DNA from: Candidatus Peregrinibacteria bacterium
GTDB lineage: Bacteria; Patescibacteriota; Gracilibacteria; Peribacterales; Peribacteraceae
Length of the DNA: 64,000 nucleotides
NCBI GenBank assembly: GCA_030649955.1
Contig: JAUSFD010000017.1
Coordinates: forward strand, 1-64,000
Direction: 5' to 3'
Position numbers and translations under genes: made by a program. The notes under the pieces were generated by a model. It was not told the DNA's origin and did no database searches. It saw only the letters and a program-made list of their open reading frames with translations. Below, piece by piece: positions 9,885-29,574 of the stretch (the first letter of the stretch is position 1; every line of letters starts with the position of its first letter).

Positions 9885-9912
9885 TTGACATGACGGCACA
9901 AATCCTTACACT
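9885..9912 (+). promoter_or_regulatory. Promoter of the Phe-leader operon
   Basis: TTGACA (9885-9890), 16-base spacer, TACACT (9907-9912). The predicted start of transcription falls at about 9918-9920, directly before the leader-peptide ATG at 9921, so the leader peptide is nearly leaderless. Confidence 0.75.
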
Positions 9913-9920
9913 GCGCCCAC

Positions 9921-9998
9921 ATGTCTCGCACGACGAACTTCTATGGCGCCTTCTGGTTTACCTTTAGTCAGGGGAAGGCGTATCTGTGCGTAGACTGA
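9921..9998 (+). CDS. Phe/aromatic leader peptide (attenuator)
   Basis: A 25-codon reading frame, ATGTCTCGC to TGA, with seven aromatic residues: Phe7, Tyr8, Phe11, Trp12, Phe13, Phe15 and Tyr21. It lies directly after a good promoter and directly before a four-segment attenuator and a prephenate-dehydratase-like gene. The composition and position are those of a pheA-type leader peptide. Stalling at codons 11-15 would cover RNA segment 1 and allow antitermination (see the attenuator entry). No homology is needed for this call; it rests on the sequence itself. Confidence 0.85.
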   Translation: MSRTTNFYGAFWFTFSQGKAYLCVD

Positions 9999-10049
9999 TC
10001 TAGCTCACCAGAGCCGCACCGCCTCCCCCAAGCACCCGAGGCGGGTTTT
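9947..10049 (+). terminator. Four-segment transcription attenuator (Phe type)
   Basis: Segment 1 CGCCTTC (9947-9953) pairs with segment 2 GAAGGCG (9974-9980). Segment 2, as GGGGAAGGCG (9971-9980), can instead pair with segment 3 CGCCTCCCC (10020-10028), supported by an adjoining GTGCG/CGCAC stem (9986-9990 with 10015-10019). Segment 3, as CCGCCTC (10019-10025), pairs with segment 4 GAGGCGG (10038-10044) followed by GTTTT: an intrinsic terminator. The exclusive pairings match the classical attenuation design. Confidence 0.85.
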
Positions 10050-10086: not shown

Positions 10087-10398
10087 ATGACTGCAGTCCT
10101 CTCCCCTGAGCCAGCCCTCCGTGACGGGCATCGCCAACTCGATCGCGCGAATGGACACCATGATGCGATTGAACAGCTACGACGAGAACTCATCGATGCC
10201 ATCGTCGCGATCGTCGAAGGCCACTACGAAAGTCGTGCAAAGAGCATCAGCATTGCGGACGTGAAACATTTCGCAAATGCCGAGGGGTGTCGCTCGAACA
10301 TCGAAGGTCTTTCCCTCGAGCACCTCCAGTACGTCCACGGCATGGTCACAGGGAATCGCATTCCCCGGCCAAAATCCCTGGATGCAAAGAATGCGTAG
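10087..10398 (+). CDS. Small hypothetical protein in the Phe-attenuated operon
   Basis: 103 residues from ATG 10087, all-helical in appearance, no membrane segment. First gene after the attenuator and 20 bases before the prephenate-dehydratase-like gene. The segment EQLRRELIDAIVAIVEGHYE followed by a Lys (IADVKHF) is faintly like the first helix of an AroQ chorismate mutase (LRxxIDxID...R...K), and the position before a prephenate-processing gene would suit that, but the RE and Gln active-site residues are not evident. I treat chorismate mutase as a guess only. Confidence 0.65.
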   Translation: MTAVLSPEPALRDGHRQLDRANGHHDAIEQLRRELIDAIVAIVEGHYESRAKSISIADVKHFANAEGCRSNIEGLSLEHLQYVHGMVTGNRIPRPKSLDAKNA

Positions 10399-10418: not shown

Positions 10419-11630
10419 ATGTCTCCCAACGCACCATCACCGCTCATCCCTCCAGGATCGACGATCGCGGCCCTGAAGAAGCTCACGTACTCTGACGAAG
10501 CTGCGCAAGCACTGCGGGAGAAATATCCTAATACTACGGTAGAGAACCTGAACACGATTGAACAGGTTGTGGCGAGCATACAGCAAGGCTGGTATGTCGT
10601 TCTCCCTATCGAAAGCTACGTCGCAGGTCCTGTGGGAAAGCACAGAGATCTCCTCTTGCAGGGGCAGGGAAAGATCATCGCGGAAGTGAACGTGGGGGTT
10701 GCGATCTACCCTGGCGGTGCGCATGCGGGTGCTCTCTCCACGGCACGAAGTGCAGCTTCGCACCCTAAAGGAATTGAGCAGTGTTCACGATTCCTCGCTG
10801 CGCATCCGCACATCGAGGGGCGGCAGTTCTGCGATAGCACAGCTGATGCTGCGGAGATCGTGGGCAATCGAGTGAAGCAATACCAGGATGAGACGGTCAT
10901 CGCGCTCGCATCGAAGCCTGCACTCCTTGCGAATGACCTCACCCTCCTCACGGATCAGTCCGTGAGCGATTTCCCCGGTGGAGGTACGCAAATGTACGTA
11001 CTCCAGAAGAACGGTTCCGAGGCGCTCCCACGATCCGGTGCTCGTTTCCACGCGCTCGATCTGCGTCCAGAGAATCAGCCGAGAGTCCTAGCACACATCC
11101 TCCACGCAATAGCCCGCAACCGGTTAGATCTGCGATCACTCCATAGCTATCCCCGCGGTAAAGATGCGGACGGAAAGGATCAACATGGGTTCTTCATGGA
11201 ACTCTTCGATGAGTCCGGTACGGCACGGCTGCATATTATGCAAAGCACACTCGAGGTTATGAGAGCCCATCCATCGGTTCAGTGGCTTGGTAGTTGGGAC
11301 GAGGCACTCGAAGTGGGTGAACTCTCTACGGAAGCAGAGCCGGATTACCCCGATCAACTCATCACCCAGGGTTCCCTGGATGTGACGAAGCCAGAAATCT
11401 CCGTCCGTTTAGTCCTCAAGAACCGTCCGGGTGTGCTCGCCGATGTCCTCCAGCTCTTCCATTACGCTGGCATGGATCTCACACTTCTGCAGAGCTACTC
11501 CCTTGGACGGAAACGTTACGGCTTCTCCGTCACTATGCGCCCTCTCAAACCCTGCACGGAGGAGACCGGTCGTGAATTGATGGCAGAGCTATCCATGCAC
11601 CGGGATCTCGCCTCGCTCGAGTGGCTGTAA
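10419..11630 (+). CDS. Prephenate dehydratase-like protein with two ACT domains
   Basis: 403 residues from ATG 10419. The N-terminal half follows the prephenate dehydratase fold: VVLPIESYVAGPVGKHRDLL matches the family's PIENSxEGxVxxTLDLL, then a QC..FL segment and ALASKPALLANDLTLL. The family's catalytic TRF motif is replaced by TQM (in GGGTQMYVL), so dehydratase activity is doubtful. Two ACT domains follow (NQPRVLAHILHAIARNRLDL near 255; NRPGVLADVLQLFHYAGMDL near 345), where most relatives have one. The Phe-rich leader and attenuator upstream tie it to phenylalanine supply. It may be an altered-specificity enzyme or a Phe-sensing regulator. Confidence 0.75.
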   Translation: MSPNAPSPLIPPGSTIAALKKLTYSDEAAQALREKYPNTTVENLNTIEQVVASIQQGWYVVLPIESYVAGPVGKHRDLLLQGQGKIIAEVNVGVAIYPGGAHAGALSTARSAASHPKGIEQCSRFLAAHPHIEGRQFCDSTADAAEIVGNRVKQYQDETVIALASKPALLANDLTLLTDQSVSDFPGGGTQMYVLQKNGSEALPRSGARFHALDLRPENQPRVLAHILHAIARNRLDLRSLHSYPRGKDADGKDQHGFFMELFDESGTARLHIMQSTLEVMRAHPSVQWLGSWDEALEVGELSTEAEPDYPDQLITQGSLDVTKPEISVRLVLKNRPGVLADVLQLFHYAGMDLTLLQSYSLGRKRYGFSVTMRPLKPCTEETGRELMAELSMHRDLASLEWL

Positions 11631-12120: not shown

Positions 12121-12277
12121 GATGCTACGGCTCCGCGATACAAACTATTGGTTTGTTCGATGGAAGCATTCGCAATAGCGGCGTAGCGCTACGCCGCTAT
12201 CTATGGGGGCGCAGGCTCTGAGATGGCTAATGTTTCGAATGCGAAGCCGTATGATTTCAAGGAACAGATACGAAAAA

Positions 12278-12397
12278 CCCCTCTTCTGGAGGGGCGAGTG
12301 AGTTGCGAATAGCTTCAGTTCATTGACTACAACTCAGGCCCCTCTGCATCTTGCAGAAGTAACGGATAACCGTGAGGACCTGGTGGGAGCGAGACAT
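12278..12397 (-). terminator. Second complete transcription attenuator (orphan)
   Basis: Read on the minus strand. Segment 1/2 hairpin CTTCTGCA-AGA-TGCAGAGG lies inside the leader peptide. Segment 2 (GAGGGGC and TGAGTTG) can instead pair with CAACTCA and GCCCCTC further on: 14 pairs around a small internal loop. Segment 3/4 is an intrinsic terminator CCCCTC-cagaa-GAGGGG followed by TTTTT (12273-12294). The design is the same as at 9947-10049, but no biosynthetic gene follows on this strand. Confidence 0.75.
12320..12397 (-). CDS. Leader peptide of the orphan attenuator
   Basis: A 25-codon frame from ATG 12397 to TGA 12320, beginning with the same ATGTCTCGC as the Phe leader. The middle reads HQVLTVIRYFCKMQRGL. 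The codons that would have to stall a ribosome to mask segment 1 are GTT ATC CGT TAC TTC TGC, so the sensed amino acid could be Val/Ile, Tyr/Phe, Arg or Cys; it cannot be fixed from sequence. Upstream promoter at 12407-12435 puts the transcript start within a few bases of the ATG. Confidence 0.6.
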   Translation of the reverse strand: MSRSHQVLTVIRYFCKMQRGLSCSQ

Positions 12398-12406
12398 GTG
12401 CGCCCA

Positions 12407-12435
12407 TTTTTATATGGTCAACGTGCTGGAGTCAA
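12407..12435 (-). promoter_or_regulatory. Promoter of the orphan attenuator
   Basis: On the minus strand TTGACT (12435-12430) followed by TATAAA at 15 bases or TAAAAA at 17 bases. It lies in the short gap after the pcrA stop (12455), so the attenuator RNA has its own start. Confidence 0.55.
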
Positions 12436-16609: not shown

Positions 16610-16894
16610 ATGCCACTCCCTTCCAAAGATTTCCGCGACCTCTGCAGCCTCATCGCTTCGATCAAGTCGGAGAAGGAGGCGGCGTTACTTTTGAAAGATC
16701 TTCTCACTCCTCAGGAGCTCGACTCCCTCACGGAGCGCTGGCAATTGATTCAGGAACTCGCGAAGGGGACACCGCAGCGAGAAATCGCCCAGAAGCTCCA
16801 CATCAGCATCAGCAAGATCACCCGCGGGTCGCATGCACTCAAGTACGGAGCGGGGGGCTTTCGCCGGTTCCTCAAGAGAGCAAGGGCGCACTAG
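16610..16894 (+). CDS. trpR: TrpR/YerC family trp operon repressor
   Basis: 94 residues, all helical. LLTPQELDSLTERWQLIQEL aligns with the TrpR helices before the reader head, GTPQREIAQKLHISISKITR is the helix-turn-helix, and ITRGSHALK matches ITRGSNSLK of Escherichia coli TrpR, including the Thr-Arg-Gly-Ser residues near the tryptophan site. Convergent to trpA with a 23-base 3' overlap, i.e. at the far end of the operon it probably controls. It is GC-rich like the rest of the window, unlike the aro-trp genes. Confidence 0.88.
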   Translation: MPLPSKDFRDLCSLIASIKSEKEAALLLKDLLTPQELDSLTERWQLIQELAKGTPQREIAQKLHISISKITRGSHALKYGAGGFRRFLKRARAH

Positions 16895-17684
16895 AACTCT
16901 CCATATTTTTTTTCGATCCCGGTTGTAGCTCTCTGCATACGTTTGCGATCATTTGCATGCTGGGGAACTCCTGCACAATTCTACTTCCCACAATTACTCC
17001 GTCTGCACCAGCATCCACCGCAGCTTGAACCTGTTCAACAGTATTGATGCCAAATCCCACAAAGAGTGGCAATGATGTATGTGGCCGTATGCGTTGAATG
17101 ACTGTGTGAATATTCTCACCAAGAATTGCATTCGTGACGCCAGTGACTCCAAGGTAAGAGACAACGTAAAGGTATCCATCAGCGAGTTTTCCAATCTGTT
17201 GCAGTCGTTCCTTCGTAGTGAGCTCACTCACCAGGAAAACGGGTGCGATGCCATGCTTGCGAGCAAGTGGCACTACTTCCTGAGCATGTTCTAGCGGGAG
17301 ATCGGCAATGAGCACGGAATTCACACCGACCCTCGCACAGTCTTCATAAAACTTCTCGGTTCCGCGTTGCAGAACAAGGTTGTAATACACAAGCAGGCCA
17401 ATGGGGATATCGGTATCGCTCCTCACTTCTTCAAGAATATCAAAACAGTCGTCGATCTTGATTCCGCTATGGAGTGCACGTACATCTGCCGCCTGAATGA
17501 TAGGACCATCTGCAGGGGGATCAGAGAAAGGAAAGCCTAACTCCAGGGCATCTGCACCGTTCTCAATGAGCGTTCGAATGATCTGAAGAGATTCGTCCTT
17601 ATTTGGATCTCCGAGAACAGCAAAGGGAATAAAGAGTGCGTTCCCCTTCTTTTTCAAAGCCTCTGCGTACGGATTAGACAGCAT
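16872..17684 (-). CDS. trpA: Tryptophan synthase alpha chain
   Basis: 270 residues from ATG 17684 ([10 protein letters not shown]), overlapping the trpB stop by 11 bases. Catalytic Glu and Asp lie in [17 protein letters not shown]; also [28 protein letters not shown] and [12 protein letters not shown]. It cleaves indole-glycerol phosphate and passes indole to TrpB. Last gene of the supraoperon. Confidence 0.96.
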
Positions 17685-18876
17685 GGTTTTGTAGGTAACG
17701 AAGAACATGATCAATATCCTTATCTCCTCTGCCAGAAAGATTGATGAGGAGGATATCTTCTTTTTTCAGTGAAGAGGCAATTTTCTGTGCAGCGGCAATC
17801 GCGTGTGACGGTTCGAGGGCCGGAATGATTCCTTCCTTTCTGGTGAGCAAGAGGAACGCAGCAACAGCTTCCTGGTCAGTGATCGAGACGTACTGTGCTC
17901 GTTGTCTATCCTTCAAAAAACTATGTTCCGGTCCAACGCCTGGATAATCCAAACCAGCGGAGATGCTGTGTGCCTCCTGAATCTGGCCGTCTTCGTCTTG
18001 CAGGCAGTAGCTATAGGACCCATGCAGCGATCCTGGCCGTCCCATACCGAGGGCAGCACCATGCTTTCCTGTTTCAATGCCTTCTCCTGCGGGCTCCACA
18101 CCGACGAGTTGTACCTCAGCATCGTCTAGGAAAGCCTTGAAGATCCCGATGGCATTGCTTCCTCCTCCTACGCATGCACAAACGGTGTGCGGTAGCCTTC
18201 CGTATCGCTCCAAACATTGCACCCTTGCCTCGTCACCTATGACTCGCTGGAAGTAGGCGACGAGAGACGGGAAAGGATGAGGCCCTGCCACAGTCCCGAA
18301 GACGTAGTACGTGTCCTTACTGTGCGCAGTCCAGTACCGTAATGCATCGTTGATCGCGTCCTTGAGGCTTTGTGAGCCGGAATTGACGGAGATAACCTCC
18401 GCTCCGAAGAGCTTCATACGCTGCACGTTGGGGTGCTGTCTCTCGATATCCTTCGCACCCATGAAAATCTTCACGGGCAGATTGAAGAGCGCACCAGCCA
18501 TTGCCGTCGCAACTCCATGTTGACCCGCTCCTGTCTCAGCAATGAGTTCTGCTTTGCCCATGCGCTTTGCAAGGAGTGCTTGTCCGATGACGTTATTCGT
18601 CTTGTGCGCACCTCCATGCAAAAGATCTTCACGTTTCAAAACAACCCTGCAGCCAAACTCTTTACTGAGCGTGGGAAGCTCCGTGATCGGGGTCGGTCGC
18701 CCTGCGAAATCGCGGAGGAGATCATGCAGCTCCTTCTGGAATACAGGATCATCCTTGTATTGCAGGAATGCTGCTTCGACTTCGCTCAGAACGGGGATAA
18801 GAAGTTCCGAGACGTAGCAGCCACCGAAGGCCTGCCCTGAGCTTGTCGGAGGGCCGAATTGTCCGAGGGTTTTCAT
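17674..18876 (-). CDS. trpB: Tryptophan synthase beta chain, with an in-frame repeat insertion
   Basis: 400 residues from ATG 18876, which overlaps the trpF stop (ATGA). Pyridoxal phosphate Lys in [14 protein letters not shown], catalytic Glu in [13 protein letters not shown], phosphate loop [12 protein letters not shown] and the C-terminal LSGRGDKD. Near the N terminus the usual FGGxYVxExL reads [20 protein letters not shown]: about 10 extra residues encoded by a copy of a dispersed palindromic repeat (18831-18853). Confidence 0.95.
18831..18853 (-). repeat. Dispersed palindromic repeat inside trpB
   Basis: CCTGCCCTGAGCTTGTCGGA then GGG on the plus strand; 21 of 23 bases match the complement of 60494-60516. 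In trpB it encodes PPTSSGQA. From experience, DKLRAG / STSSGQA / PELVEG peptides from this repeat type recur in annotated proteins of many environmental bacteria. Confidence 0.75.
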
Positions 18877-19469
18877 GAGGAGAGGGCGTGAAGGAATGCA
18901 GACATGCGATGGTGATTTTTCTCTCCCGGAGAACTTTCGATTCCACGCGCACAATCAACGGCAAAGGGTTGGATACGATCTGCAGCGACCCTGACATTTC
19001 CTGGGGTAAGGCCACCTGCAAAGAAGAGCTTTGAGCGAATGTGCAGCGGCAATTGCGCAGCTGCATCGAAGTCTACCTCATTCTCACCCTCAGCTTTATC
19101 TATGAGTACATAAGCGCAATGATGAAGAGCACTCTCCAAGTTTTTGATATCGGGTATGCCTCGGAAAGCTTGGATCACTGGCACAGAGATATTCTTGAGA
19201 AATCCATCATCCTGCCTCCCGTAAAGTTGCACGTAATCGAGATGAAGCATGTGAATATGTTTCTCCATTTCCGTCTGAGACTGTTCTTCAAACACACCGA
19301 CGAGTTGAGCTTTCTGTATGTGCTTCTTCAACGTTTCAGCGTGTTCAAGAGTGACATACCTCGGAGAAGATGGCACGAAGATGAAACCGAGGAAGTCGAC
19401 TGCAAGAGCCTCAGCAGCTTCGATATCTGCTTCCCGTGTCATGCCGCAAAATTTCACTTTCGGTTTCAT
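18873..19469 (-). CDS. trpF: Phosphoribosylanthranilate isomerase
   Basis: 198 residues, normal length. [17 protein letters not shown] carries the catalytic Cys, then [34 protein letters not shown] and [16 protein letters not shown] (catalytic Asp and phosphate site). It converts phosphoribosylanthranilate to the carboxyphenylamino-deoxyribulose phosphate used by TrpC. Overlaps both neighbours by 4 bases. Confidence 0.95.
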
Positions 19470-20254
19470 GATGCGAAGAGAGAATGGAGATGAGAAACAG
19501 GATCGTTGGCTTTCAAGATGGATGTACCTATCAGGAATCCTTGAACGAAAGGTGCAAGGCGCTTGATATCTTCTCTCGTATGAATGCCGCTTTCGGTGAT
19601 AAGACCGCGAATACCAGGCAACAGCTTCCTCACAAATGGCGCAAGCTTCTCTGTTGTTTGCAAATCGGTCTTCAGCGTGTGGAGATCTCTGTTGTTGATG
19701 CCGATCAGTACGTGCTTTCTTTTATCTGCTGAAAGCAAATCAAACACTTCCGCAGATTTTTCTATTTCTTCTTTGGAATGCACTTCGAGAAGGACATCGA
19801 GATTGAGGTCAACTGCATGAGAAGCAAGTTCCACAAATGCAAGTCTTTCTAGAATCGCCGCAATCAAAAGAATGGCATTTGCTCCATTGTTCACAGCATG
19901 ATCGATTTGGCGAGTGCTGATGATGACGTCCTTCGCGAGGAGCGGCTTCTCCGTCATCATGCGTACTTCGTTCAACAAATCGAATCCTCCTCCGAAGTAC
20001 TGTTCATCGCAGAGGACAGAAATTGCCTGTGCGTGCTGGTTGTACAGTTTTACCATATTTGGAATGCCTTCTCTGTTCAACAGAAGGCCTCCCGATGGAG
20101 ACTTCGGTTTGATTTCAGCAATGAGCGCGGGATGCCTTTGCAGAATTGCATCAATGAACGAAGGCCCGGAGGCCCGTTTGGGCATCATGTTCGGCAGTGA
20201 GGCGATTTCCTGCTTCTTCGTTGCAACGATGGTATCGAGGATGGATGCGGTCAT
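19466..20254 (-). CDS. trpC: Indole-3-glycerol phosphate synthase
   Basis: 262 residues, monofunctional. Catalytic Lys in LIAEIKPKSPSGG, then LCDEQYFGGGFDLL, PLLAKDVIIS (second Lys), LEVHSKEEIEK, IGINNRDLHTLKTD and ITESGIHTREDI. Order trpD-trpC-trpF with 4-base overlaps suggests strict translational coupling. Confidence 0.96.
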   Translation of the reverse strand: MTASILDTIVATKKQEIASLPNMMPKRASGPSFIDAILQRHPALIAEIKPKSPSGGLLLNREGIPNMVKLYNQHAQAISVLCDEQYFGGGFDLLNEVRMMTEKPLLAKDVIISTRQIDHAVNNGANAILLIAAILERLAFVELASHAVDLNLDVLLEVHSKEEIEKSAEVFDLLSADKRKHVLIGINNRDLHTLKTDLQTTEKLAPFVRKLLPGIRGLITESGIHTREDIKRLAPFVQGFLIGTSILKANDPVSHLHSLFAS

Positions 20255-21234
20255 AGTTGTTTGGTGAAATCCCGATACGAAAGGAAGAGATCATGTGCTG
20301 CACCGGACTCCAGAGTTTTTTGAGCAAGTGAGAAGGCATCTTCGATTCTCGTTACCAAAGGCGTGAGGAGCAGTGCATGTGCCGCATTGAGCAGAATGAG
20401 ATTCTTCATTGCAGCCGTGCCTCTCCCTTGGGCAAGCTCCAAGAAAAGTGCTGAGTTTTCCTTTGCAGTTCCACCTTCGATTTCAGAAGCAAACGCGAGT
20501 GGTACAGATAGAGATGCTGGTGAGAATTCTTCGATCTTTACGTCCTTTTCTGTGACACGCCGCACCCTCGTTCCTGTGGTAACTGTCACTTCATCGAGGC
20601 CGTCATGCCCTGTGACAATCATTGATCCTATGGAGCCAAGTTTTTGCAGTGTTTCTGCGATGACCTTGGCGTCTGTGTCGCTCCCGGTACCGATCATCTG
20701 TCGATGGACACCTGCCGGGTTACAGAGAGGTCCGATCAGATTGAAGAGAGTCTTCTTGCCGTATTTCTTCCGTAGAGGCGCAACGAATCGAAGAGCAGGG
20801 TGATGGAGTCGGGCATAGAGGAAGGCAATCCCCATTTCTTCAAATACACGGCGTTCCTGATCAGGATTCAGATCGATGTTCACTCCCAACTCTTCCAAGA
20901 GGTCAAAGCAACCACAATTGCCACCCGCCGAGCGGTTGCCGTGCTTGGCAACTTTTCCGCCTACTGCAGCCACAATAAATGCCGTCAGAGACGAAGTATT
21001 GATCGTCTTGAGACCACTACCGCCCGTACCACAGGTATCTATCGCATCAGAAGAGAGTGATGTGGGAATCATGCTTTCTCGCAATGCTCGTACTCCATTC
21101 GTGAGCAAATCCGCTGAGATGGGTCGCTGCACAAGATCGTTGAATATGGCTTGTCGTTCTGCATCCTCACATTTTTCTGAGAGCAGGGTCTTGGTCAGTT
21201 CGAATGCCGATTGGTTATGAAGAGTCGCAGACAT
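20251..21234 (-). CDS. trpD: Anthranilate phosphoribosyltransferase
   Basis: 327 residues from ATG 21234, two bases after the aroC stop. DTCGTGGSGLKTINTSS binds PRPP; KHGNRSAGGNCGCFDLLEEL replaces the more usual GNRxxSSxxGSADVLE, a local deviation at the anthranilate/PRPP site; also FLYARLHHPALRFV and TLFNLIGPLCNPAG. Not fused to TrpG, because TrpG is fused to DAHP synthase in this operon. Confidence 0.95.
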   Translation of the reverse strand: MSATLHNQSAFELTKTLLSEKCEDAERQAIFNDLVQRPISADLLTNGVRALRESMIPTSLSSDAIDTCGTGGSGLKTINTSSLTAFIVAAVGGKVAKHGNRSAGGNCGCFDLLEELGVNIDLNPDQERRVFEEMGIAFLYARLHHPALRFVAPLRKKYGKKTLFNLIGPLCNPAGVHRQMIGTGSDTDAKVIAETLQKLGSIGSMIVTGHDGLDEVTVTTGTRVRRVTEKDVKIEEFSPASLSVPLAFASEIEGGTAKENSALFLELAQGRGTAAMKNLILLNAAHALLLTPLVTRIEDAFSLAQKTLESGAAHDLFLSYRDFTKQL

Positions 21235-21236
21235 GA

Positions 21237-22250
21237 TCAGGAAGAAGGATGATTCGTAAAATTGGCGTAGGTGCGTTGCAGCAGATAACAATCTGCAAGC
21301 ACGATGGCTACCATCGCTTCGGCTACAGGAATAACGCGAGGGACGATGCAGGAGTCGTGACGGCCTCTCTTGGCTACCTCTCCAAGAGAACTAGGAGGCT
21401 TCACGCTGATATGGAGAACCATATCTTCTCCCGTGGAGATTCCACCAAGAATGCCGCCGAAGTGTTTGCGATCTGAGATGTAATCGACGCCTTTCATTGC
21501 GGCAACATCGAATCCTGATCCATAGCTAAAGCCGGTGACGGCTCCGATGCTCATGAGCGCATCTGCGAGTCGTGCTTTCAATTTGCCGAAGACCGGATCT
21601 CCTAAATTCGGAGGAGTGCCAGTCACACGGACTTCTATCAATCCACCGGTGGAGTTGAACTTTTCTTTGAGTTCTAAGACGTATTCCTCCATTTGCTTGG
21701 CTGCAGATGGATCGGCACATCTAACAGGATTCTGCTCAATTGATTCAAGATTGAATGTCTTGGCTTCATGCGGCCCGATCTTGATGGTGTGCCCAATAAC
21801 CTTTGTATCTATAGGCAGAATCTTCCGTGCGATTGTTCCAGCAATGACTCTTGCCACGGTTTCTCTGCCAGAAGATCTTCCTCCCCCTCGGTGATCCCGA
21901 TGCTCGTACTTCGCCGCGTACGTCGCATCAGCATGCCCAGGCCGGAAGGCTTTTCGCAGCAGATCGTAGTCCTGGGGGCGTTGATCCTTATTCTCCACGA
22001 TCACCGTAATCGGCATACCGGTAGTCTTCCCTTCAAATACACCGGAGAGAATGATCGGCTTATCTTCCTCCTTGCGTGCACTCGCCATAGCACTCTGGCC
22101 AGGACGACGCCTGCGAAGATCTGGCAGCAGATCATCTTCCGACAATGAGATGCCGCTTGGACATCCATCGATGACGACACCGAGAGCGGGTCCGTGTGAT
22201 TCGCCGAAGGTGGTGATGCGAAACAGATCGCCAAAACTATTGCTTGCCAT
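21237..22250 (-). CDS. aroC: Chorismate synthase
   Basis: 337 residues from ATG 22250 (MASNSFGDLF), inside the last codons of aroD-aroE. The two catalytic His lie in FRITTFGESHGPALGV and EHRDHRGGGRSSGRET; RRRPGQSAMASARKE is the RRPGQ signature, and GSGFDVAAMKG and KHFGGILGGISTGEDM line the flavin site. It makes chorismate from EPSP using reduced FMN. Confidence 0.96.
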   Translation of the reverse strand: MASNSFGDLFRITTFGESHGPALGVVIDGCPSGISLSEDDLLPDLRRRRPGQSAMASARKEEDKPIILSGVFEGKTTGMPITVIVENKDQRPQDYDLLRKAFRPGHADATYAAKYEHRDHRGGGRSSGRETVARVIAGTIARKILPIDTKVIGHTIKIGPHEAKTFNLESIEQNPVRCADPSAAKQMEEYVLELKEKFNSTGGLIEVRVTGTPPNLGDPVFGKLKARLADALMSIGAVTGFSYGSGFDVAAMKGVDYISDRKHFGGILGGISTGEDMVLHISVKPPSSLGEVAKRGRHDSCIVPRVIPVAEAMVAIVLADCYLLQRTYANFTNHPSS

Positions 22251-23601
22251 AGGACATTGGGAAAAGAGACTGAAGAAATTGGCTATCATCACTCGATGGT
22301 GTGATACCAGTGAAACATTGGAATTGGCCGAGAGCTTGCTGAAGAAGCATCGGAATCCCGTCATGAGTCTGATACCCCTTTTGTTCTGCTTCTTTCAAAA
22401 AGAGGGTGGCTTTGCCATATCGAAGATCAAGCGCGTGAGCACCTGGCTTTGCAGAGGGAATTGGCAGAGGTACATCGGCATTCACGGCACATATAAGTAC
22501 ATCCGGTTTTGCCTTCAAGACTGCGGAGAGGTCAAAACTTGGAATAGAGAACTTCTTTTCAATTTCTAATCGTGCTTCCGTGCTTCGTGCGAACACCTGT
22601 ATCTCTTGGATTCCCTTTTCCTTGCAGGCATGAATCACAGCAGGCACTACGCCTCCTGATCCGAGAATTGCGACGGCAGATCCTTCTTTAATAAAGTCGT
22701 AGCCTTCTCGAATGCCGTATTCATCTTTGTTGTAACCCTTATACTCGCCGTCTTCGCGCACGACTGTATTTACGCTCTGCAGCTCTCTAGCCAGAGGGTC
22801 GAGATCATCAAGGGTTGAAAGTATGTCTTTCTTGAAAGGTGTTGTTACCGAAAGCCCCTGCACCTTTGTCTGCTTTATAAAGCTCATCGCATCGTCGAGA
22901 TTATCCGAAAGAAATGCCGTAAAAACAGCATCTACATCATGGGCTGCGAATAATGCGTTCTGTATGAGTGGACTTCCACTCTTCACATTTAGGCTTCCGA
23001 GAATGCCGAAGACAAGTGGCTGCTTGCAGTGCGCTGTTTTCTTGTAGAGCGAGAGGGCTACCTGTCCGGAAGCAGCAGCTTCGCCTTCATCCACATACGT
23101 GTATGTCAGTTCATTTCGGAACGGCGAGAGGATGCGATTATAATTTGCGCGAATACCCATGCCGAGAATAATGCGCTTCTGCTCTTTGGGCAGGGCAGCA
23201 TGCAGTCTTTCGAGCGTTGCAAGATCATCGTATGCATTGATCGTCGTAACGATCTTGATGATATCTGCTCCTTCACTGCGACATTGCTCCGTCAGTTCCA
23301 GCAACGCTTGTAAAGAAGGTGTCTTTTCATAATCGTGGAAGCTGCGTATGAGAGTCGCAGATGATGGAATAGGAGTTGTCTCTCCAAGCTCTAGATCGAT
23401 ATATGATGGCTGGAGATTCGTGATCAGGCTCGCGCTGGTGTTCCGTGGAGAGACGATGAGAGGCAATGGTGTGTTGAATGCGGGCACATTTGGAGTTAGA
23501 TCTCCGCGAATCTCCAGGAGATCTGCTCCTGCTTCACTCACTCGCTTGGCGAACGTCAGGGGGTCATGTGCGGCCGATGATGGCAGGGTTACAACGAACA
23601 T
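22237..23601 (-). CDS. aroD-aroE: Fused 3-dehydroquinate dehydratase (type I) - shikimate dehydrogenase
   Basis: 454 residues. Residues 1-215 are a type I dehydratase: EIRGDLTPN, catalytic His in SFHDYEKTP, Schiff-base Lys in DIIKIVTTIN and a degenerate C-terminal ASGQVAL. Residues 220-454 are AroE: GSLNVKSGSPLIQNALF, SVTTPFKK (catalytic Lys), SVNTVV, GYNKDEYG (NTD reads NKD), AVAILGSGGVVPAVIHA (NADP loop). The same fusion order is known from plants and some bacteria. It covers pathway steps 3 and 4. Confidence 0.93.
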   Translation of the reverse strand: MFVVTLPSSAAHDPLTFAKRVSEAGADLLEIRGDLTPNVPAFNTPLPLIVSPRNTSASLITNLQPSYIDLELGETTPIPSSATLIRSFHDYEKTPSLQALLELTEQCRSEGADIIKIVTTINAYDDLATLERLHAALPKEQKRIILGMGIRANYNRILSPFRNELTYTYVDEGEAAASGQVALSLYKKTAHCKQPLVFGILGSLNVKSGSPLIQNALFAAHDVDAVFTAFLSDNLDDAMSFIKQTKVQGLSVTTPFKKDILSTLDDLDPLARELQSVNTVVREDGEYKGYNKDEYGIREGYDFIKEGSAVAILGSGGVVPAVIHACKEKGIQEIQVFARSTEARLEIEKKFSIPSFDLSAVLKAKPDVLICAVNADVPLPIPSAKPGAHALDLRYGKATLFLKEAEQKGYQTHDGIPMLLQQALGQFQCFTGITPSSDDSQFLQSLFPMSYGKQ

Positions 23602-25322
23602 AGAGCGCGAAGAGAACGAACGGCATCATTAATGCTGCCGGAGTTAGGAAGCGAAAAGTGAGCGACCTCTTGGTAGAGCGGAGTCCGTTTTTTGAGGATC
23701 ATCGGAACCTCCTGCTCCAGAGGAAGAGCGGTCAAAGACGGTCTTTTAGCCTTTTTCAATCGTTCTATGAGCTCGCCTGATCGCGCCTTCAGGTGAATAA
23801 CGATTGCCTGCTCTCGTAGCCGTCTTCGTGTAGCCTTGGACTCGATTGCTCCGCCACCAAGAGAGACAACATGACCAGGTTGTAGGCACGCTTGTACGAT
23901 GCGCTCTTCCTCTTTCCGAAATTTCATCCAGTCATGCTTCTCAATGAACCTTCGTATGTTTCCATGTTTCCGTTCGAAGACACGATCTGTATCAAACGAT
24001 TTGAGCGACAAAGCATGCGCAAGTGACTTCCCCAGCGTGCTCTTGCCGCAGCCACGCATACCGACAATCGCAATGGGACGGGATGAAGAGTGAAGACTCT
24101 GTAGATCGTCAAAGAAATGCGGATAGCTCTTCGAGACGCAGCCGGGATTCTCGATACGGATTCCAGGGTGGAGGGAACCTAGAATCGCAAAGCAGAATGC
24201 CATTCGATGGTCGTCATGAGGATCGAGAAGAGCACCTCTAATTGTTGATTTTCGGACTGTGACCCCATCGTGATTTTTCTCGATTCGAATACCTGCCTTT
24301 TGCAATTCATTGGTGAGAACTGAAAGTCGATCAGACTCCTTGTATCGTAGATTCTCGGCTCCACTCATCTTGGTCACTTCGTCTCTGCATGCAGCAAGGA
24401 CAGCCAGATTCATCACTTGATCGGGTATGTCTGAGCAGTGAATCGTTATCTGTCCTTTCTTCCGCATTTGAGCAATTACCTTCGGAAGCGTCGCATCTCC
24501 TTGCAGCGAACGTGGGTCGAGATTCGAAAAGGATACCGTGCTGTGTGTGAGTTCAGCGAGAACAAGGAAAGCTCCCGCCGCACTGTGATCTCCTTCGACG
24601 TGATAGCTGCGAGGCGTTCTATATCTCGCTGTGTCCAAAACATGTATCACTCCATTTCGCATCTGAACAGGAACACCAAAATCTCTCATGACTTGTCGTG
24701 TGAGAGCGACATAAGACTGCGAGGGGACAGACCCTACCAGCTTCAGCGTCATGCCTTGTGGAAGAACAGGAGCAATGAGCAGCAATGATGTCAGGAACTG
24801 GCTACTCTTTTGTGTTCTGAGGTTTGCGACTCCACCCAACAATGATCCGCCTCGTATATGGATTGGCGGATACCCATTTGTATCTTCAATGTCTGCTCCC
24901 AATGCTTTCAGTGCTGCAACAAGATCGCCGATAGGACGCTTGTGCATAGCATCATTTCCCGTGAGAACGAATTCGCCGGGAACAATACAGGCGAGAGATG
25001 TAAGGAAGCGTAGCGTCGTACCGGCATTTCCACAGAAGAGTTCCTTTGGCCTTCTGTACCTCTGTTTCTTCGGAATGCCCCCGCTGATAATCAGAATGCC
25101 TTTTTTACGATTGGTGTAGTGAATATCGAAGCCAATCGAGGCTAGGTTTTTTACGAGGAGAGCAACATCGTCGCATGGTGTTGCGCCATAGATCGTCGTC
25201 TGACCTTCAGAAAGGCATGCGGCGATGATCGCGCGGTTCGCGTGAGACTTTGATCCCGGCATGGTCAATGTCGCTGTAAATGGGAGCGAAAGAGGAGCCA
25301 GTGAGAGCACGTCAGTATTCAT
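23589..25322 (-). CDS. aroA-aroK: Fused EPSP synthase - shikimate kinase
   Basis: 577 residues. Residues 1-425 are AroA: PGSKSHANRAIIAACL, ELFCGNAGTTLRFLTSL, SSQFLTSLLLIAPVLP, NLRYKESDRLSVL and DPHDDHRMAFCFAILG. Residues 428-577 are shikimate kinase: VGMRGCGKSTLGKSLAHAL (Walker A), SFDTDRVFE, FRKEEERIV and VVSLGGGAI. In the pathway the kinase acts just before EPSP synthase, so one polypeptide holds two consecutive steps in reverse order. The overlap with aroB is 4 bases and with aroD-aroE 13 bases. Confidence 0.94.
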   Translation of the reverse strand: MNTDVLSLAPLSLPFTATLTMPGSKSHANRAIIAACLSEGQTTIYGATPCDDVALLVKNLASIGFDIHYTNRKKGILIISGGIPKKQRYRRPKELFCGNAGTTLRFLTSLACIVPGEFVLTGNDAMHKRPIGDLVAALKALGADIEDTNGYPPIHIRGGSLLGGVANLRTQKSSQFLTSLLLIAPVLPQGMTLKLVGSVPSQSYVALTRQVMRDFGVPVQMRNGVIHVLDTARYRTPRSYHVEGDHSAAGAFLVLAELTHSTVSFSNLDPRSLQGDATLPKVIAQMRKKGQITIHCSDIPDQVMNLAVLAACRDEVTKMSGAENLRYKESDRLSVLTNELQKAGIRIEKNHDGVTVRKSTIRGALLDPHDDHRMAFCFAILGSLHPGIRIENPGCVSKSYPHFFDDLQSLHSSSRPIAIVGMRGCGKSTLGKSLAHALSLKSFDTDRVFERKHGNIRRFIEKHDWMKFRKEEERIVQACLQPGHVVSLGGGAIESKATRRRLREQAIVIHLKARSGELIERLKKAKRPSLTALPLEQEVPMILKKRTPLYQEVAHFSLPNSGSINDAVRSLRALCSL

Positions 25323-26365
25323 GAGTACGTACGAAGAAAGCGTTCTTCATCCAAAGTGATGATTTCTCCTTTCCCAAACTCTCTCGGCACCGCGATCCTG
25401 AGGTCTCGGCTGATAACCTTTTTATCGCTCTGCATGGCTCTTAGTAGAGTCTGTGGTTTGCACGTATCGGGAATCACTGTAGGCATGTTGATCTCCTCCA
25501 ATAGATGTTTCATGCGATCAACACCTTTCAAGTCTGCAAGTTGCATTTCCGCAATCATTCCGATACTCACAGCCTTCCCGTGAGAGATGGTGAAATCCGA
25601 TACGGCTTCGACAGCGTGACCGATAGTGTGACCAAAGTTCAAAAAGAGCCGCTTTGTTTGATCTCGTTCATCTTCCTCAACAATTTGTACTTTCAGGCTC
25701 ACTGCTTTCTCAATGCAACTCAGGAGCACTGAGGACTCTTTCGCCAGAATCTTCTTCATATTCTTCTCGATGTACTCAAGGAAATTCGCATCAAGCATCG
25801 CGGCAATCTTGATAACTTCGACAAGCCCCTCACAGAACTGCGTATCAGGAAGTGTCGATAACAGACGGATATCTGCGATGACTGCCCTTGGATGATGAAA
25901 TGCACCCAAGAGATTTTTTACTGTGCCAAGATCCACTCCAGTTTTTCCTCCGATGGAGGCATCAACCATACCGAGCAGTGTTGTTGGAATGTGTACGCAG
26001 CCGATGCCACGCATGTACATGCTCGCAACAAAGCCACCAAGGTCTGTGAGCATCCCTCCGCCAACATTGAGGAGAAGTGACTGACGTGTGGCTCCAAGTG
26101 CCAGTAGACTCGACGCAATGCGCTCGACCTCATGCAAGGATTTTGATGCTTCGCCGCTTGGAACTGAGATCAGGTGTGCTTTCTGAAGATGCGAAGCGAT
26201 ATCCTTCGCAACTGTCTTGACCGCTGCATCATGCAGGATAAAGAAGCCATCAAAATTTCCAAGCTTTTCTATGAACTGATGCAGTTCGATCAGCATTCCT
26301 TCTCCGATATGAACGGGAGTGGAAGTGGCTTGAGCCTGTGGATGGTGGAGAATAATTGTTTTCAT
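25319..26365 (-). CDS. aroB: 3-dehydroquinate synthase
   Basis: 348 residues. NAD- and metal-site motifs are intact: NVGGGMLTDLGGFVASMYMR, IPTTLLGMVDASIGGKTGVD, KNLLGAFHHP, EGLVEVIKIAAMLD and FGHTIGHAVE. It cyclises DAHP. Start lies 2 bases after the trpG-DAHP synthase stop. Confidence 0.96.
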   Translation of the reverse strand: MKTIILHHPQAQATSTPVHIGEGMLIELHQFIEKLGNFDGFFILHDAAVKTVAKDIASHLQKAHLISVPSGEASKSLHEVERIASSLLALGATRQSLLLNVGGGMLTDLGGFVASMYMRGIGCVHIPTTLLGMVDASIGGKTGVDLGTVKNLLGAFHHPRAVIADIRLLSTLPDTQFCEGLVEVIKIAAMLDANFLEYIEKNMKKILAKESSVLLSCIEKAVSLKVQIVEEDERDQTKRLFLNFGHTIGHAVEAVSDFTISHGKAVSIGMIAEMQLADLKGVDRMKHLLEEINMPTVIPDTCKPQTLLRAMQSDKKVISRDLRIAVPREFGKGEIITLDEERFLRTYS

Positions 26366-26367
26366 GG

Positions 26368-27825
26368 TTATGCGATGGTTTTACCAACAGCAAAAGCAAC
26401 TTTGCGAATGCCTTCCATGCATTCTTGAAGCTGTTCAGGAGAGAGGGACTGTCGACCATCGGAAAGCGCATCTTCGGGATGTGGATGCACTTCCATGATC
26501 AAACCATCGCATCCCATTGCAACGGCTGCACGCGCGTAATCGGGTACATACTCAGCGACACCTGCAGCATGGCTTGGGTCAACAATGATCGGAAGGTGTG
26601 TGAGTTTTCGGAGAGGAGGAATGGAGCCGAGACAGAGTGTGAAACGCACTTCGTTCTCGAAGGTTCTGATGCCTCGCTCACAGAGAATGACGTTCTCATT
26701 GCCGTTTGCGAGGATATGTTCAGCAGCCAGCAGAAGTTCTTCCAACGTTGCTGCAAGTCCACGTTTCAACAGCACCGGTTTCCTGGCTTTTCCCACTCGA
26801 CGGAGCAGATCGTAATTCTGCATGTTTCGTGCGCCGATCTGAATGATGTCACAGTATTCCTCCATGAGATCGACCTGCTCAGGACTCATCGCTTCAGAGA
26901 CAGTGGCAAGGTCGTACTTCTCCGCAGCTTTTTTGAGCAACTTCAGTCCCTGCTCACCCAAACCTTGGAAACAATACGGCCCGGTGCGCGGCTTGAATGC
27001 ACCACCACGGATGATCTTCACTCCCTGCTCTTTTACCATCGCTACGGCCTCATCCACCTGCGCTTCGGATTCAATCGAGCAAGGCCCGGCAATAACGACT
27101 ACCTGGTTTGGAGAGCCGATAACACAGTTCGGTCGTATCGTAATCTCCGTGCGGTCTCGCACTTCTTTGGAAGCAAGCAAATACGGCTTCTTCTGTGTCT
27201 TTCCAAGAACGAGAGTGTGCACGTTGATGGATGGCAATTTCTTGGCAACCGAGAGGAAGTTTCGCAGGATTTCTTTCCCTACAGGTGTTCCAATGGACTC
27301 CGGATGGAATTGAACGCCGAAGAGTGGGAATTCTGTATGTTCAACCGCCATCACGACGCCATCCTCGCTTGAGGCCGTGATACGAAGTGAATGAGAAACT
27401 GTTTCTTTCTCTGCACAGAGCGAGTGATACCGCATCACATCGAATTCCTTGCCGATACCTTTGAAAAGTGAACTATCGCCCTCCAGCCGGACTCTTGAGG
27501 ATTTACCGTGAAAAAGCTTCGGAGCTCTAGAGACTGTCGCTCCAAAGTGTTTTGCAAGGACTTGATGTCCAAGACATACCCCAAGAAGTGGAATGTGCTG
27601 CTTGGCGGCATAGTCGATCAGCTTTTCCGAGATACCAATATCCCGTTCCGTATACGGGTTGCCTGGACCAGGGCTGATCACGATATGGCTTATTCCCAGC
27701 CTTTCGACCTCATCCAAGTCTATTTTGTCATTGCGATGCACGACGGGATTCCCACCGAGCTCCCCTATGTATTGATAGAGGTTGAAGGTGAACGAATCGT
27801 AGTTATCGAGGATGAGTGTTTTCAT
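26368..27825 (-). CDS. trpG-aroF: Fused anthranilate synthase glutaminase (TrpG) - DAHP synthase
   Basis: 485 residues. Residues 1-195 are a complete TrpG: DNYDSFTFNLYQYIGELG, ISPGPGNP, nucleophile Cys84 in GVCLGHQ and His174/Glu176 in FHPES. Residues 215-485 are a DAHP synthase of the KDO8P-synthase-like (Bacillus/Thermotoga) type: PYLLASKEVRDR, VVIAGPCSIESEAQ, RGGAFKPRTGPY, ILCERGIRTFE and PIIVDPSHAAG. The ferredoxin-like/ACT regulatory domain that precedes this DAHP synthase in Thermotoga is absent, its place taken by TrpG. This joins the first step of the shikimate pathway to the ammonia-supplying half of the first Trp step. Confidence 0.93.
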   Translation of the reverse strand: MKTLILDNYDSFTFNLYQYIGELGGNPVVHRNDKIDLDEVERLGISHIVISPGPGNPYTERDIGISEKLIDYAAKQHIPLLGVCLGHQVLAKHFGATVSRAPKLFHGKSSRVRLEGDSSLFKGIGKEFDVMRYHSLCAEKETVSHSLRITASSEDGVVMAVEHTEFPLFGVQFHPESIGTPVGKEILRNFLSVAKKLPSINVHTLVLGKTQKKPYLLASKEVRDRTEITIRPNCVIGSPNQVVVIAGPCSIESEAQVDEAVAMVKEQGVKIIRGGAFKPRTGPYCFQGLGEQGLKLLKKAAEKYDLATVSEAMSPEQVDLMEEYCDIIQIGARNMQNYDLLRRVGKARKPVLLKRGLAATLEELLLAAEHILANGNENVILCERGIRTFENEVRFTLCLGSIPPLRKLTHLPIIVDPSHAAGVAEYVPDYARAAVAMGCDGLIMEVHPHPEDALSDGRQSLSPEQLQECMEGIRKVAFAVGKTIA

Positions 27826-29246
27826 GATTGTTGAGGGGAAGCCCTTCGATGGGACTCAGGGTGGGCTTTTGCAAGTTTCACAGCAGCCAGACAACTCCTC
27901 ACTTTGTGAAGGCATTCGTTATCTTCGTGTTCGGGGATGCTGTCTTTCACGATTCCCGCTCCCACACGAAGACTGATCTTGCCATCCTGGAAGAGCATCG
28001 TTCGGATGGTGATGGCGAAATCGACATTGCCCGCAAGATCGATATACCCGAATGCTCCGCCGTAGATTCCGCGAGGCGAACGCTCCAAATCACGGATGAT
28101 CTCCATTGCTCGGACTTTGGGAGCCCCTGTGAGCGTTCCTGCAGGGAACACCGAACGAATGGCATCAAGCGGAGTAAGCCCCTCCCTGATGCGTCCCGTT
28201 ACCTCGGAGACGATATGGAAGACATGGGCGTACTGCTCAATATGAAAAGGGTTACGCACCTGCACAGAGCCAATTTCCGCAACACGCCCGACATCATTGC
28301 GCCCAAGATCCACGAGCATTTGATGCTCGCACCGTTCCTTTTCGTCATGGAGCAGCTCTTCCTGCATGCGTTTGTCCTCTTGTTCATTTCCGGTTCTCTT
28401 TCGTGTTCCAGCTATAGGGCGATAGAGAATATTCCTTCCATCGATGCGAATCAGAGTTTCAGGAGATGCTCCTACAATTTTCCGCTCAGGTGTCTGGTAG
28501 TAATACATGTATGGCGAAGGGTTGAGCGATCGGAGTTCTTCGTACACCCGATCAGCAGAAACGTTATTCTCCATAACGAGCTCTTGGCTTAGCACTACTT
28601 GGAATACTTCTCCTGCCAGGATTTGTTCCTTGATTTTCTCGACTGCAGCGCAGTAATCCTTGCGTGACATTTGACGCAGTGGCTCGATCTCATCGAGAGT
28701 GGGTAATGGCAATTCTGTTGAACTGGTTCCCCCTTTTGTATCATCAAAAAATGGAGAGGAATGGATCACTTCTTCAATACGAGAGAGGTCTTCCTGGGAA
28801 TCTTTGTGAGAAATAATGGTGATCTCATGTTTCACGTGATTAATTTTGAGAAGCACTTCGGGCAGCACAAAGACTGCATCAGGCACACGCGGATGAGTCG
28901 GAAGGTCGATGTCTTCGAATTGCCGCGCAGCCTCGTAACTGAGGAATCCTATGTAGCCCATGCGCAGACGTTCACCTTCATCACCAGAATTGATCGTTTC
29001 ACGGAAAACAGAGAGAGCATCTGGCACTTTCCCATCAGGGACGTACTGAGATCCTCGGACAGCTCCTTGCTCTACCGTAATCACGTCCCTGGCACCGAGG
29101 GCGAGGAATGAGTAATCATTCGTGCCCTGGCGGTCTACGGACTCCAGGAGAGCGCAGTAGCTACGGCTGAGCCCCAGCTTTCGAAGCAGGAAGAGTGGAT
29201 CGCAGTGCTTGGGTTGAACGGCGGTAGACGTGAGAGAGAAACGCAT
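27822..29246 (-). CDS. trpE: Anthranilate synthase component I
   Basis: 474 residues. The Trp feedback-site motif LLES is present near residue 38 (YCALLESVDRQG). Chorismate-site motifs: VVLSQELVMEN, GASPETLIRIDG, RPIAGTRKRTG, LVDLGRNDVGRV, FPAGTLTGAPKVRAMEII, IRTMLFQDG and RVGAGIVKDS. First gene of the operon, coupled to trpG-DAHP synthase by a 4-base overlap. It is preceded by the Trp attenuator. The retained LLES suggests enzyme-level inhibition in addition. Confidence 0.96.
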   Translation of the reverse strand: MRFSLTSTAVQPKHCDPLFLLRKLGLSRSYCALLESVDRQGTNDYSFLALGARDVITVEQGAVRGSQYVPDGKVPDALSVFRETINSGDEGERLRMGYIGFLSYEAARQFEDIDLPTHPRVPDAVFVLPEVLLKINHVKHEITIISHKDSQEDLSRIEEVIHSSPFFDDTKGGTSSTELPLPTLDEIEPLRQMSRKDYCAAVEKIKEQILAGEVFQVVLSQELVMENNVSADRVYEELRSLNPSPYMYYYQTPERKIVGASPETLIRIDGRNILYRPIAGTRKRTGNEQEDKRMQEELLHDEKERCEHQMLVDLGRNDVGRVAEIGSVQVRNPFHIEQYAHVFHIVSEVTGRIREGLTPLDAIRSVFPAGTLTGAPKVRAMEIIRDLERSPRGIYGGAFGYIDLAGNVDFAITIRTMLFQDGKISLRVGAGIVKDSIPEHEDNECLHKVRSCLAAVKLAKAHPESHRRASPQQS

Positions 29247-29264: not shown

Positions 29265-29334
29265 GAAAAAAAGCCCCTCCGCTCAGGGAAGGGCTTTAGA
29301 TTCAAGTTATAGAGCACCCTTACCGCCGAACGGA
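29265..29334 (-). terminator. Trp attenuator: terminator and alternative stems
   Basis: Minus strand. Terminator AGCCCTTCC-ctgagc-GGAGGGGCT followed by seven T (stem 29295-29272). The 5' arm can instead pair with GGTAAGGGTGCT, which contains the leader-peptide stop, and that segment can pair with GC-ACCCT just after the tandem Trp codons. These are the 3:4, 2:3 and 1:2 pairings of a classical trp attenuator. Confidence 0.85.
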
Positions 29335-29388
29335 ATGTGTGAGGGTCTGCCACCAACCGAGCCGATGGGGAGCGATGTACTTATGCAC
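29320..29388 (-). CDS. trpL: Trp leader peptide
   Basis: 22 codons from GTG 29388 to TAA 29320, with adjacent Trp codons at 12-13 (HRLGWWQTLTHS). An in-frame TTG further upstream is a less likely start. It stands between the probable promoter and the terminator in front of trpE, as in Escherichia coli trpL. A ribosome stalled on the Trp codons would cover segment 1 and permit read-through into the 12.4-kb operon. Confidence 0.85.
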   Translation of the reverse strand: MHKYIAPHRLGWWQTLTHSVRR

Positions 29389-29395: not shown

Positions 29396-29574
29396 AAGGT
29401 ACAAGAACAATTCAATGTTTGCAAGACATATTTTTCTATCCTGTGAATTCTCTTGAGAGGTCCGTGAGCCTATGACTGCGTTGGATGCTTCCTAAAGATC
29501 AGAAGCGGAAAGTGCCAAAAACAGCTCTCCGCTGAGGAAAAAACCCTTGCATTCCAGTGCGGGGCATGTAATGG

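Follow-up and report, generated by a model that had tools for sequence, protein, structure and literature searches.

A predicted aromatic amino acid attenuator upstream of pheA in a Candidatus Peregrinibacteria genome, and related leaders with other amino acid specificities

The segment from position 9885 to 10049 of the window, by which we mean the whole 64,000 nt stretch of DNA analysed here (positions 1 to 64,000 of contig JAUSFD010000017.1, forward strand, assembly GCA_030649955.1, from the 1.67 Mb, 98.6 % complete genome of a Candidatus Peregrinibacteria bacterium), is very probably a ribosome-mediated transcription attenuator of pheA, the gene for prephenate dehydratase (PDT). The basis of this reading is the anatomy of the leader, its conservation, the covariation of its helices, the concordance between leader codons and downstream genes, the depletion of the cognate amino acid in the first protein encoded behind such leaders, and a simulated switch. 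A first-pass annotation, made from the sequence alone, had already proposed a Phe-type attenuator here; attenuation is supported, but the proposal was too narrow, since the codons read are those for all three aromatic residues (Phe, Tyr and Trp) rather than for Phe alone and the element belongs to a lineage-wide family with several amino acid specificities.

Anatomy of the pheA leader and its distribution

The leader is preceded by a promoter on the forward strand (9885–9912), in which TTGACA (9885–9890) and TACACT (9907–9912) are separated by 16 nt, a spacing common to 97 of 119 family leaders. The predicted transcription start lies 0–3 nt 5′ of the leader ATG, and the leader open reading frame (ORF; 9921–9998, forward strand), which starts 8 nt downstream of the −10 box and has homologues in relatives, encodes MSRTTNFYGAFWFTFSQGKAYLCVD in 25 codons, four of them for Phe, two for Tyr and one for Trp. 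The regulatory codons are F7, Y8, F11, W12 and F13 (and F15); at least six aromatic residues within nine are found in just one of the 219 window ORFs of 20–30 codons, the pheA leader itself. Segment 1 (9947–9953) makes an exact 7 bp pairing with 9974–9980 in segment 2 (GGGGAAGGCG, 9971–9980), which can alternatively pair with segment 3 (CCGCCTCCCC, 10019–10028) as an antiterminator of 9 bp with A9975 bulged (9971–9980 with 10020–10028). Segment 3 can in turn form the terminator with segment 4, GAGGCGG, which together with the U run occupies 10038–10048; this helix is an exact 7 bp (10019–10025 with 10038–10044), with a 12 nt loop, and is followed by GTTTTCC. An outer stem (9923–9932 with 9985–9997; all on the forward strand) closes the 1:2 hairpin and is predicted to form when the ribosome is absent, and its pairs show two-sided changes in relatives. 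The promoter, the 25-codon leader with seven aromatic residues and the three exclusive pairings are thus as first described, and the T-tailed terminator is present too, albeit weaker than in relatives.

PDT relatives in the 74 genomes of the window's family show 31–37 % identity among the best matches, and a divergent rsmA-like neighbour is common to several of their loci. An aromatic leader lies upstream of pheA in nearly all of the closest relatives with a readable upstream region (MSARTFAFGFTSFSFSAGKEPMCLS, MIQQTFSYGFYFSPFSAGKEPMRLM, MSVQTFTFGFFSFPFSAGQEPMCLN and others), and in each of these GGGGAAGG or a close variant is followed by a spacer, CCTTCCCC and a T run. The first-pass annotation had looked to orthologous loci for a leader frame, covarying pairs and conserved codons, and the upstream regions of relatives carry all three. 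At several relatives' loci there is a further leader, upstream of DAHP synthase or of a different gene. A search for related loci in named genomes yielded only distant Bacteroidota PDT genes.

A first covariance model, built from 14 leaders (13 aromatic-type and one Pro), found leaders in 47 of the 74 family genomes, many of them Leu leaders although this type was absent from the training set. A second model (R2), built from 86 matches, found about 120 leaders in 54 of the 74 (E ≤ 1e-3), a result to be read with the fact that R2 was trained on the family's own sequences and that its E-values are only roughly calibrated. The remainder of the class gave one match in 279 genomes (E ≤ 1e-4); this match, in G137, was rejected, its promoter being at the wrong distance (26 nt). 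No leader match was found in a phylum-wide sample of 364 genomes outside the family. One match in the window's own genome, before folE (C28:164384), was treated as false, as it has no promoter at the family position. The covariance model starts about 2 nt upstream of the leader start codon, so that the promoter lies outside it; TTGAC(A/T)-16-TANNNT nevertheless occurs at a fixed distance before 101 of 119 leaders, compared with 11 % of shuffles reaching the same score. Since the start codon mostly lies 7–12 nt behind the −10 box and a Shine–Dalgarno-like 4-mer is rare (6 of 119 leaders), the leader peptides are probably translated from near-leaderless transcripts.

We note that the window's genome (G000) also contains Leu-codon leaders at C29:57374–57503 (L051, L080) and C4:78991–79115 (L081), each upstream of small or unknown ORFs, the one on C29 also before a DUF4116-like protein. 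Elsewhere in the family, palindromic repeats have apparently been inserted in the terminator loop (GCCACGCCTTTCGCGAAAGGCGTGGC) or in frame within a Leu leader, where they add about 8 residues (for example ...PALSLVEG...), and the element is not destroyed; such insertions in terminator loops or leader frames are seen in G050, G052, G053, G009, G069, G070, G020 and G071.

A structured RNA upstream of amino acid genes could also be a ligand-binding riboswitch, a T-box or a protein-bound leader in which the small ORF is incidental. In Rfam, however, the window element has no match at the gathering threshold, to T-boxes or otherwise, and its matches at E ≤ 10 are only chance hits to microRNA, internal ribosome entry site and small nucleolar RNA families; the Phe, Trp, Leu, His and Thr leader families are absent even at that level. 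Nearly all members retain the start, frame and stop, and the encoded amino acid tracks the downstream gene, all of which makes such an element exceedingly improbable. The conservation of short peptide motifs such as AGKEP in many leaders might instead suggest that the 25-residue product is a functional small protein and that RNA pairing is a by-product of codon choice. We give this almost no credence, since the frame of leader L002 ends before the GGGGAAGG motif and the RNA motif is nevertheless kept, and since the same scaffold carries poly-Leu or Pro-rich peptides.

Covariation, predicted switching and amino acid specificity

Covariation was assessed, within the aromatic and Leu classes, by comparing the duplex of each segment and its own partner with duplexes in which the partner came from a different member. 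The cognate duplexes were far more favourable than swapped ones, with z values of −10.5 (1:2), −10.5 (2:3) and −5.6 (3:4) in the aromatic class and of −4.2, −8.8 and −5.8 respectively in the Leu class, and for each helix at most 1 in 5000 permutations matched the observed value. No comparable excess was seen for the control pairings (1:3, 2:4, 1:4 and spacer), which mostly fell within |z| 2, and the cognate excess was still present when the comparison was confined to the 16 aromatic leaders that diverge most (z −5.8, −7.7 and −4.1 for 1:2, 2:3 and 3:4). Double-change cells numbered 24 compared with 11.4 in shuffled data in a MAFFT alignment in which structure was not used, and 400 compared with 199 for 120 leaders in an alignment that was fitted to the covariance model and thus leans towards structure. 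RNAalifold recovered the 2:3 helix alone from the first alignment, as is expected when three structures compete. Both the terminator and the helix that competes with it are among the covarying helices, a hallmark of switching.

The same helices could act on translation, with leader and hairpins hiding or freeing the ribosome site of the next gene and no premature end to the transcript; the short U run in the window would fit such control, as would a next start codon only 10–30 nt behind the hairpin in many relatives. The 3:4 helix covaries, however, and in the great majority of relatives an intrinsic terminator is evident, a GC hairpin directly followed by 5–8 U, so that we consider translational control very unlikely and transcription attenuation the better account.

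In a simulation in which 28 nt were masked as the ribosome footprint (a treatment of thermodynamics, not of kinetics), the probability of terminator formation in the window leader is 1.00 without a ribosome, 0–0.10 with the A site at F7, Y8, F11, W12 or F13, and again 1.00 with the ribosome at F15 and Y21. Averaged over the family's aromatic leaders, the probability is about 0.2 with the ribosome in the regulatory run and 0.8 past codon 15, and Leu and Pro leaders give a profile of the same shape.

Under attenuation, RNA polymerase would start at about 9918–9920 and a ribosome would load onto the 25-codon leader very near the 5′ end of the transcript. With charged aromatic tRNAs scarce, the ribosome would stall at F7–F13 and cover segment 1, whereupon segments 2 and 3 would pair, the terminator would be blocked, and pheA and the gene for a small protein, P0002, would be transcribed. 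With aromatic amino acids plentiful, it would pass codon 15 and cover segment 2, and if no ribosome had loaded, segments 1 and 2 would pair; either way the 3:4 terminator would be free to stop transcription near 10048. We infer that transcription start, ribosome stalling and termination proceed in this manner in vivo. Relatives would use the same scaffold with other codons to sense leucine, proline and probably serine. The organism's own shikimate–trp operon would be served by a parallel attenuator with Trp codons.

The agreement between codons and genes is strong: of the 37 leaders for which a pathway gene was recognised no more than 750 nt away, 35 have a leader amino acid concordant with the first such gene (20 aromatic, 10 Leu, 4 Pro and 1 Ser), compared with a mean of 15.2 and a maximum of 26 in 20,000 permutations. 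The scaffold is constant and the codons vary, being aromatic before pheA or DAHP synthase, Leu before leuA, Pro before proB and Ser before serA. Relatives' leaders directly before pheA are mostly Phe-rich, and in those before DAHP synthase Phe is accompanied by Tyr and often also by Trp; the window leader is of mixed type and for this reason we term it aromatic rather than Phe-specific. The weaker model matches that have the promoter include, besides more Pro leaders upstream of proB, a Trp-Trp leader upstream of trpE and, in a second genus, a Ser/Cys leader upstream of serA; two further Leu leaders precede leuA, with a promoter found in one. The Ser/Cys-codon leaders lie directly upstream of serA in the two genera (L166 in G050 and L074 in G014) and probably represent a candidate serine attenuator. 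The Pro-codon leaders (L010, L045, L054, L056, L087 and others) lie upstream of either proB or small ORFs that have an S-layer-homology protein encoded behind them, and are confined to genomes that lack P5C reductase. Before hisI-hisG in G011 (C2; L163:457–640) there is a hairpin in which three His codons follow one another in the expected position, but it has no convincing start codon or promoter and is only suggestive of a His-codon attenuator; it was not accepted.

The first proteins behind the leaders were compared for composition over homology-collapsed groups. Leu makes up 5.8 % of those behind Leu leaders and 9.7 % of those behind others (23 vs 28 groups, p 5e-6), and Pro 1.8 % of those behind Pro leaders and 6.0 % of those behind others (5 vs 46 groups, p 0.001), with no cognate depletion in genes more than 1.5 kb downstream of leaders. 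The idea that biosynthetic enzymes use little of their cognate amino acid is not new (PMC4209129); here the depletion reaches beyond these to small proteins of no known family.

Several observations weigh against attenuation at the pheA leader, in addition to the training and calibration of R2 mentioned above. Its terminator is weak, with four U and a 12 nt loop compared with the longer U runs of most relatives (a simple terminator scanner missed it), the terminator probability drops to 0.70 when the simulated ribosome is at the stop codon, and the single-sequence folding energy is ordinary (z −1.09). The aromatic depletion in first proteins is weak (4.7 % vs 5.6 %, p 0.06 after collapsing homologues), and P0002 itself retains one Phe and two Tyr. 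A promoter of this quality is nothing unusual for the region, with 2 found and 1.3 expected. Since the folding energy and the promoter are ordinary when taken alone, the significance of the leader comes from its comparison with relatives.

Genes behind the leaders and a second predicted attenuator

The pheA leader sits between a divergent rsmA/ksgA gene and a small ORF followed by the PDT gene. The small ORF (10087–10398, forward strand) is the first gene behind the attenuator and encodes P0002, of 103 residues, which has homologues in G072 and G030 that are likewise downstream of aromatic-type leaders; Pfam and NCBIfam searches assigned P0002 to no family, and it is predicted to be helical with no fold match in the PDB. 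The gene pheA itself (10419–11630, forward strand) encodes PDT and ACT domains (PF00800, E 1e-22), so that the first-pass identification of the gene holds, although it is the second gene and not directly behind the leader. Behind pheA, on the reverse strand, there is a leader-like unit (12267–12435) with TTGACT-15-TATAAA, a 25-codon ORF (MSRSHQVLTVIRYFCKMQRGLSCSQ) and a U-tailed hairpin (12295–12277), with no clear gene downstream.

A second attenuator, absent from the first-pass annotation, is predicted on the reverse strand directly 5′ of trpE. A probable promoter, TTGCAA-17-TACCTT (29396–29424), lies 7 nt 5′ of the start codon, a layout as in the family leaders, and the leader (29320–29388) begins with GTG at 29388 and encodes M followed by HKYIAPHRLGWWQTLTHSVRR, with Trp-Trp codons (sequence MHKYIAPHRLGWWQTLTHSVRR); the terminator (29270–29297), as read from the sequence, is strong, with an 11 bp stem, a 6 nt loop and a T run. 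A similar leader before trpE of G035, another genus, supports this assignment. The simulated terminator probability is 0.05–0.11 with masking at W12/W13 and 1.00 past codon 16, and without a ribosome the minimum-energy fold favours the antiterminator (probability of terminator 0.20), so that translation may matter more to the trp attenuator than to the pheA element. The operon behind it (16872–29246, reverse strand) has the order trpE, trpG-DAHP synthase, aroB, aroA-aroK, aroD-aroE, aroC, trpD, trpC, an ORF (19469–18873), trpB and trpA, and is a complete shikimate-to-Trp set, with trpG-DAHP synthase, aroA-aroK and aroD-aroE as fusions, in a probable Candidate Phyla Radiation (CPR) genome. The completeness of this operon suggests that the organism can make chorismate and Trp, and regulation of pheA would make physiological sense.

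The relatives present a different picture. Chorismate synthase is found in 18 of the 74 family genomes and aromatic leaders in 43, with both in only 6, and P5C reductase is found in 15 and Pro leaders in 16, with both in none. Draft incompleteness was rejected as the cause of the missing pathways because most of the genomes are more than 90 % complete, and leaders serving incomplete pathways are consistent with the few amino acid synthesis genes described for Ca. Peribacter riflensis (PMC4736985). A small ORF, mostly of no known family, lies directly downstream of about 84 of 121 family leaders; these ORFs begin 10–30 nt behind most terminators, form many unrelated groups and are poor in the sensed amino acid. 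In most relatives, what the attenuators control seems to be small proteins and isolated first-step enzymes rather than whole pathways. We suggest, tentatively and with rather less than even confidence, that most family attenuators might be amino-acid-specific starvation sensors that no longer control biosynthesis of the amino acid sensed, but switch on small proteins and lone first-step enzymes (DAHP synthase, PDT, proB, leuA and serA) in cells without the remaining pathway, the encoded proteins having been purged of the missing amino acid.

Novelty and relation to known attenuators

Gene regulation in Patescibacteria/CPR has been described as virtually unknown, and most amino acid synthesis is said to be lacking (PMC11665869). 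Ribosome-mediated transcription attenuation is a known mechanism; what appear to be new are the RNA family itself, its presence in a CPR lineage, the probable near-leaderless layout, the use of one scaffold for several amino acids, and the Pro and Ser versions before proB and serA, none of which was found in Rfam or the open-access PMC literature, where we also found no paper on attenuation in CPR bacteria. As far as we know, no attenuator had been predicted before for genes of serine or proline biosynthesis. About three quarters of the sampled Peribacteria-like genomes carry this RNA family, which can be searched for directly and has a clear mechanism; it offers a handle on how these ultra-small bacteria sense nutrients, and one attenuator scaffold re-coded for different amino acids is a natural experiment in the evolution of RNA regulators. 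Cognate depletion in the first proteins would provide a culture-free genomic signature of expression under starvation.

With the enteric pheA and trp attenuators the family shares a product-rich leader peptide, three exclusive helices, a U-tailed terminator, a cognate biosynthetic gene and the logic of the switch, but it has no sequence or Rfam similarity to them. Here the leader is predicted to begin almost at the 5′ end, with no Shine–Dalgarno sequence; the leader frame contains segment 2, the beginning of the leader is folded into an outer stem, and one scaffold serves several amino acids. The leaderless cysteine-rich upstream ORFs of mycobacteria (PMC4633059) are similar in that a leader peptide has been put forward as the attenuator of a biosynthetic operon and that leaderless transcripts abound in the lineage, although these ORFs sense cysteine and are reported to have no obvious terminators, Rho having been suggested (PMC1262725), whereas the intrinsic terminator here is present and covarying. 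The actinobacterial trp, leuS and ilv attenuators and the LEU element (PMC1262725) were likewise predicted by comparison, with Trp codons in trp leaders and leader peptides before leuA; they belong to another phylum and have other RNA structures (LEU is a pseudoknot) with no common scaffold across amino acids, and that paper makes no mention of proline or serine leaders. The Salmonella mgtCBR leader (PMC3641672) also has a Pro-codon ORF that acts on transcription, but it controls Mg2+ and virulence genes, whereas the Pro leaders described here precede proB, the gene for glutamate 5-kinase.
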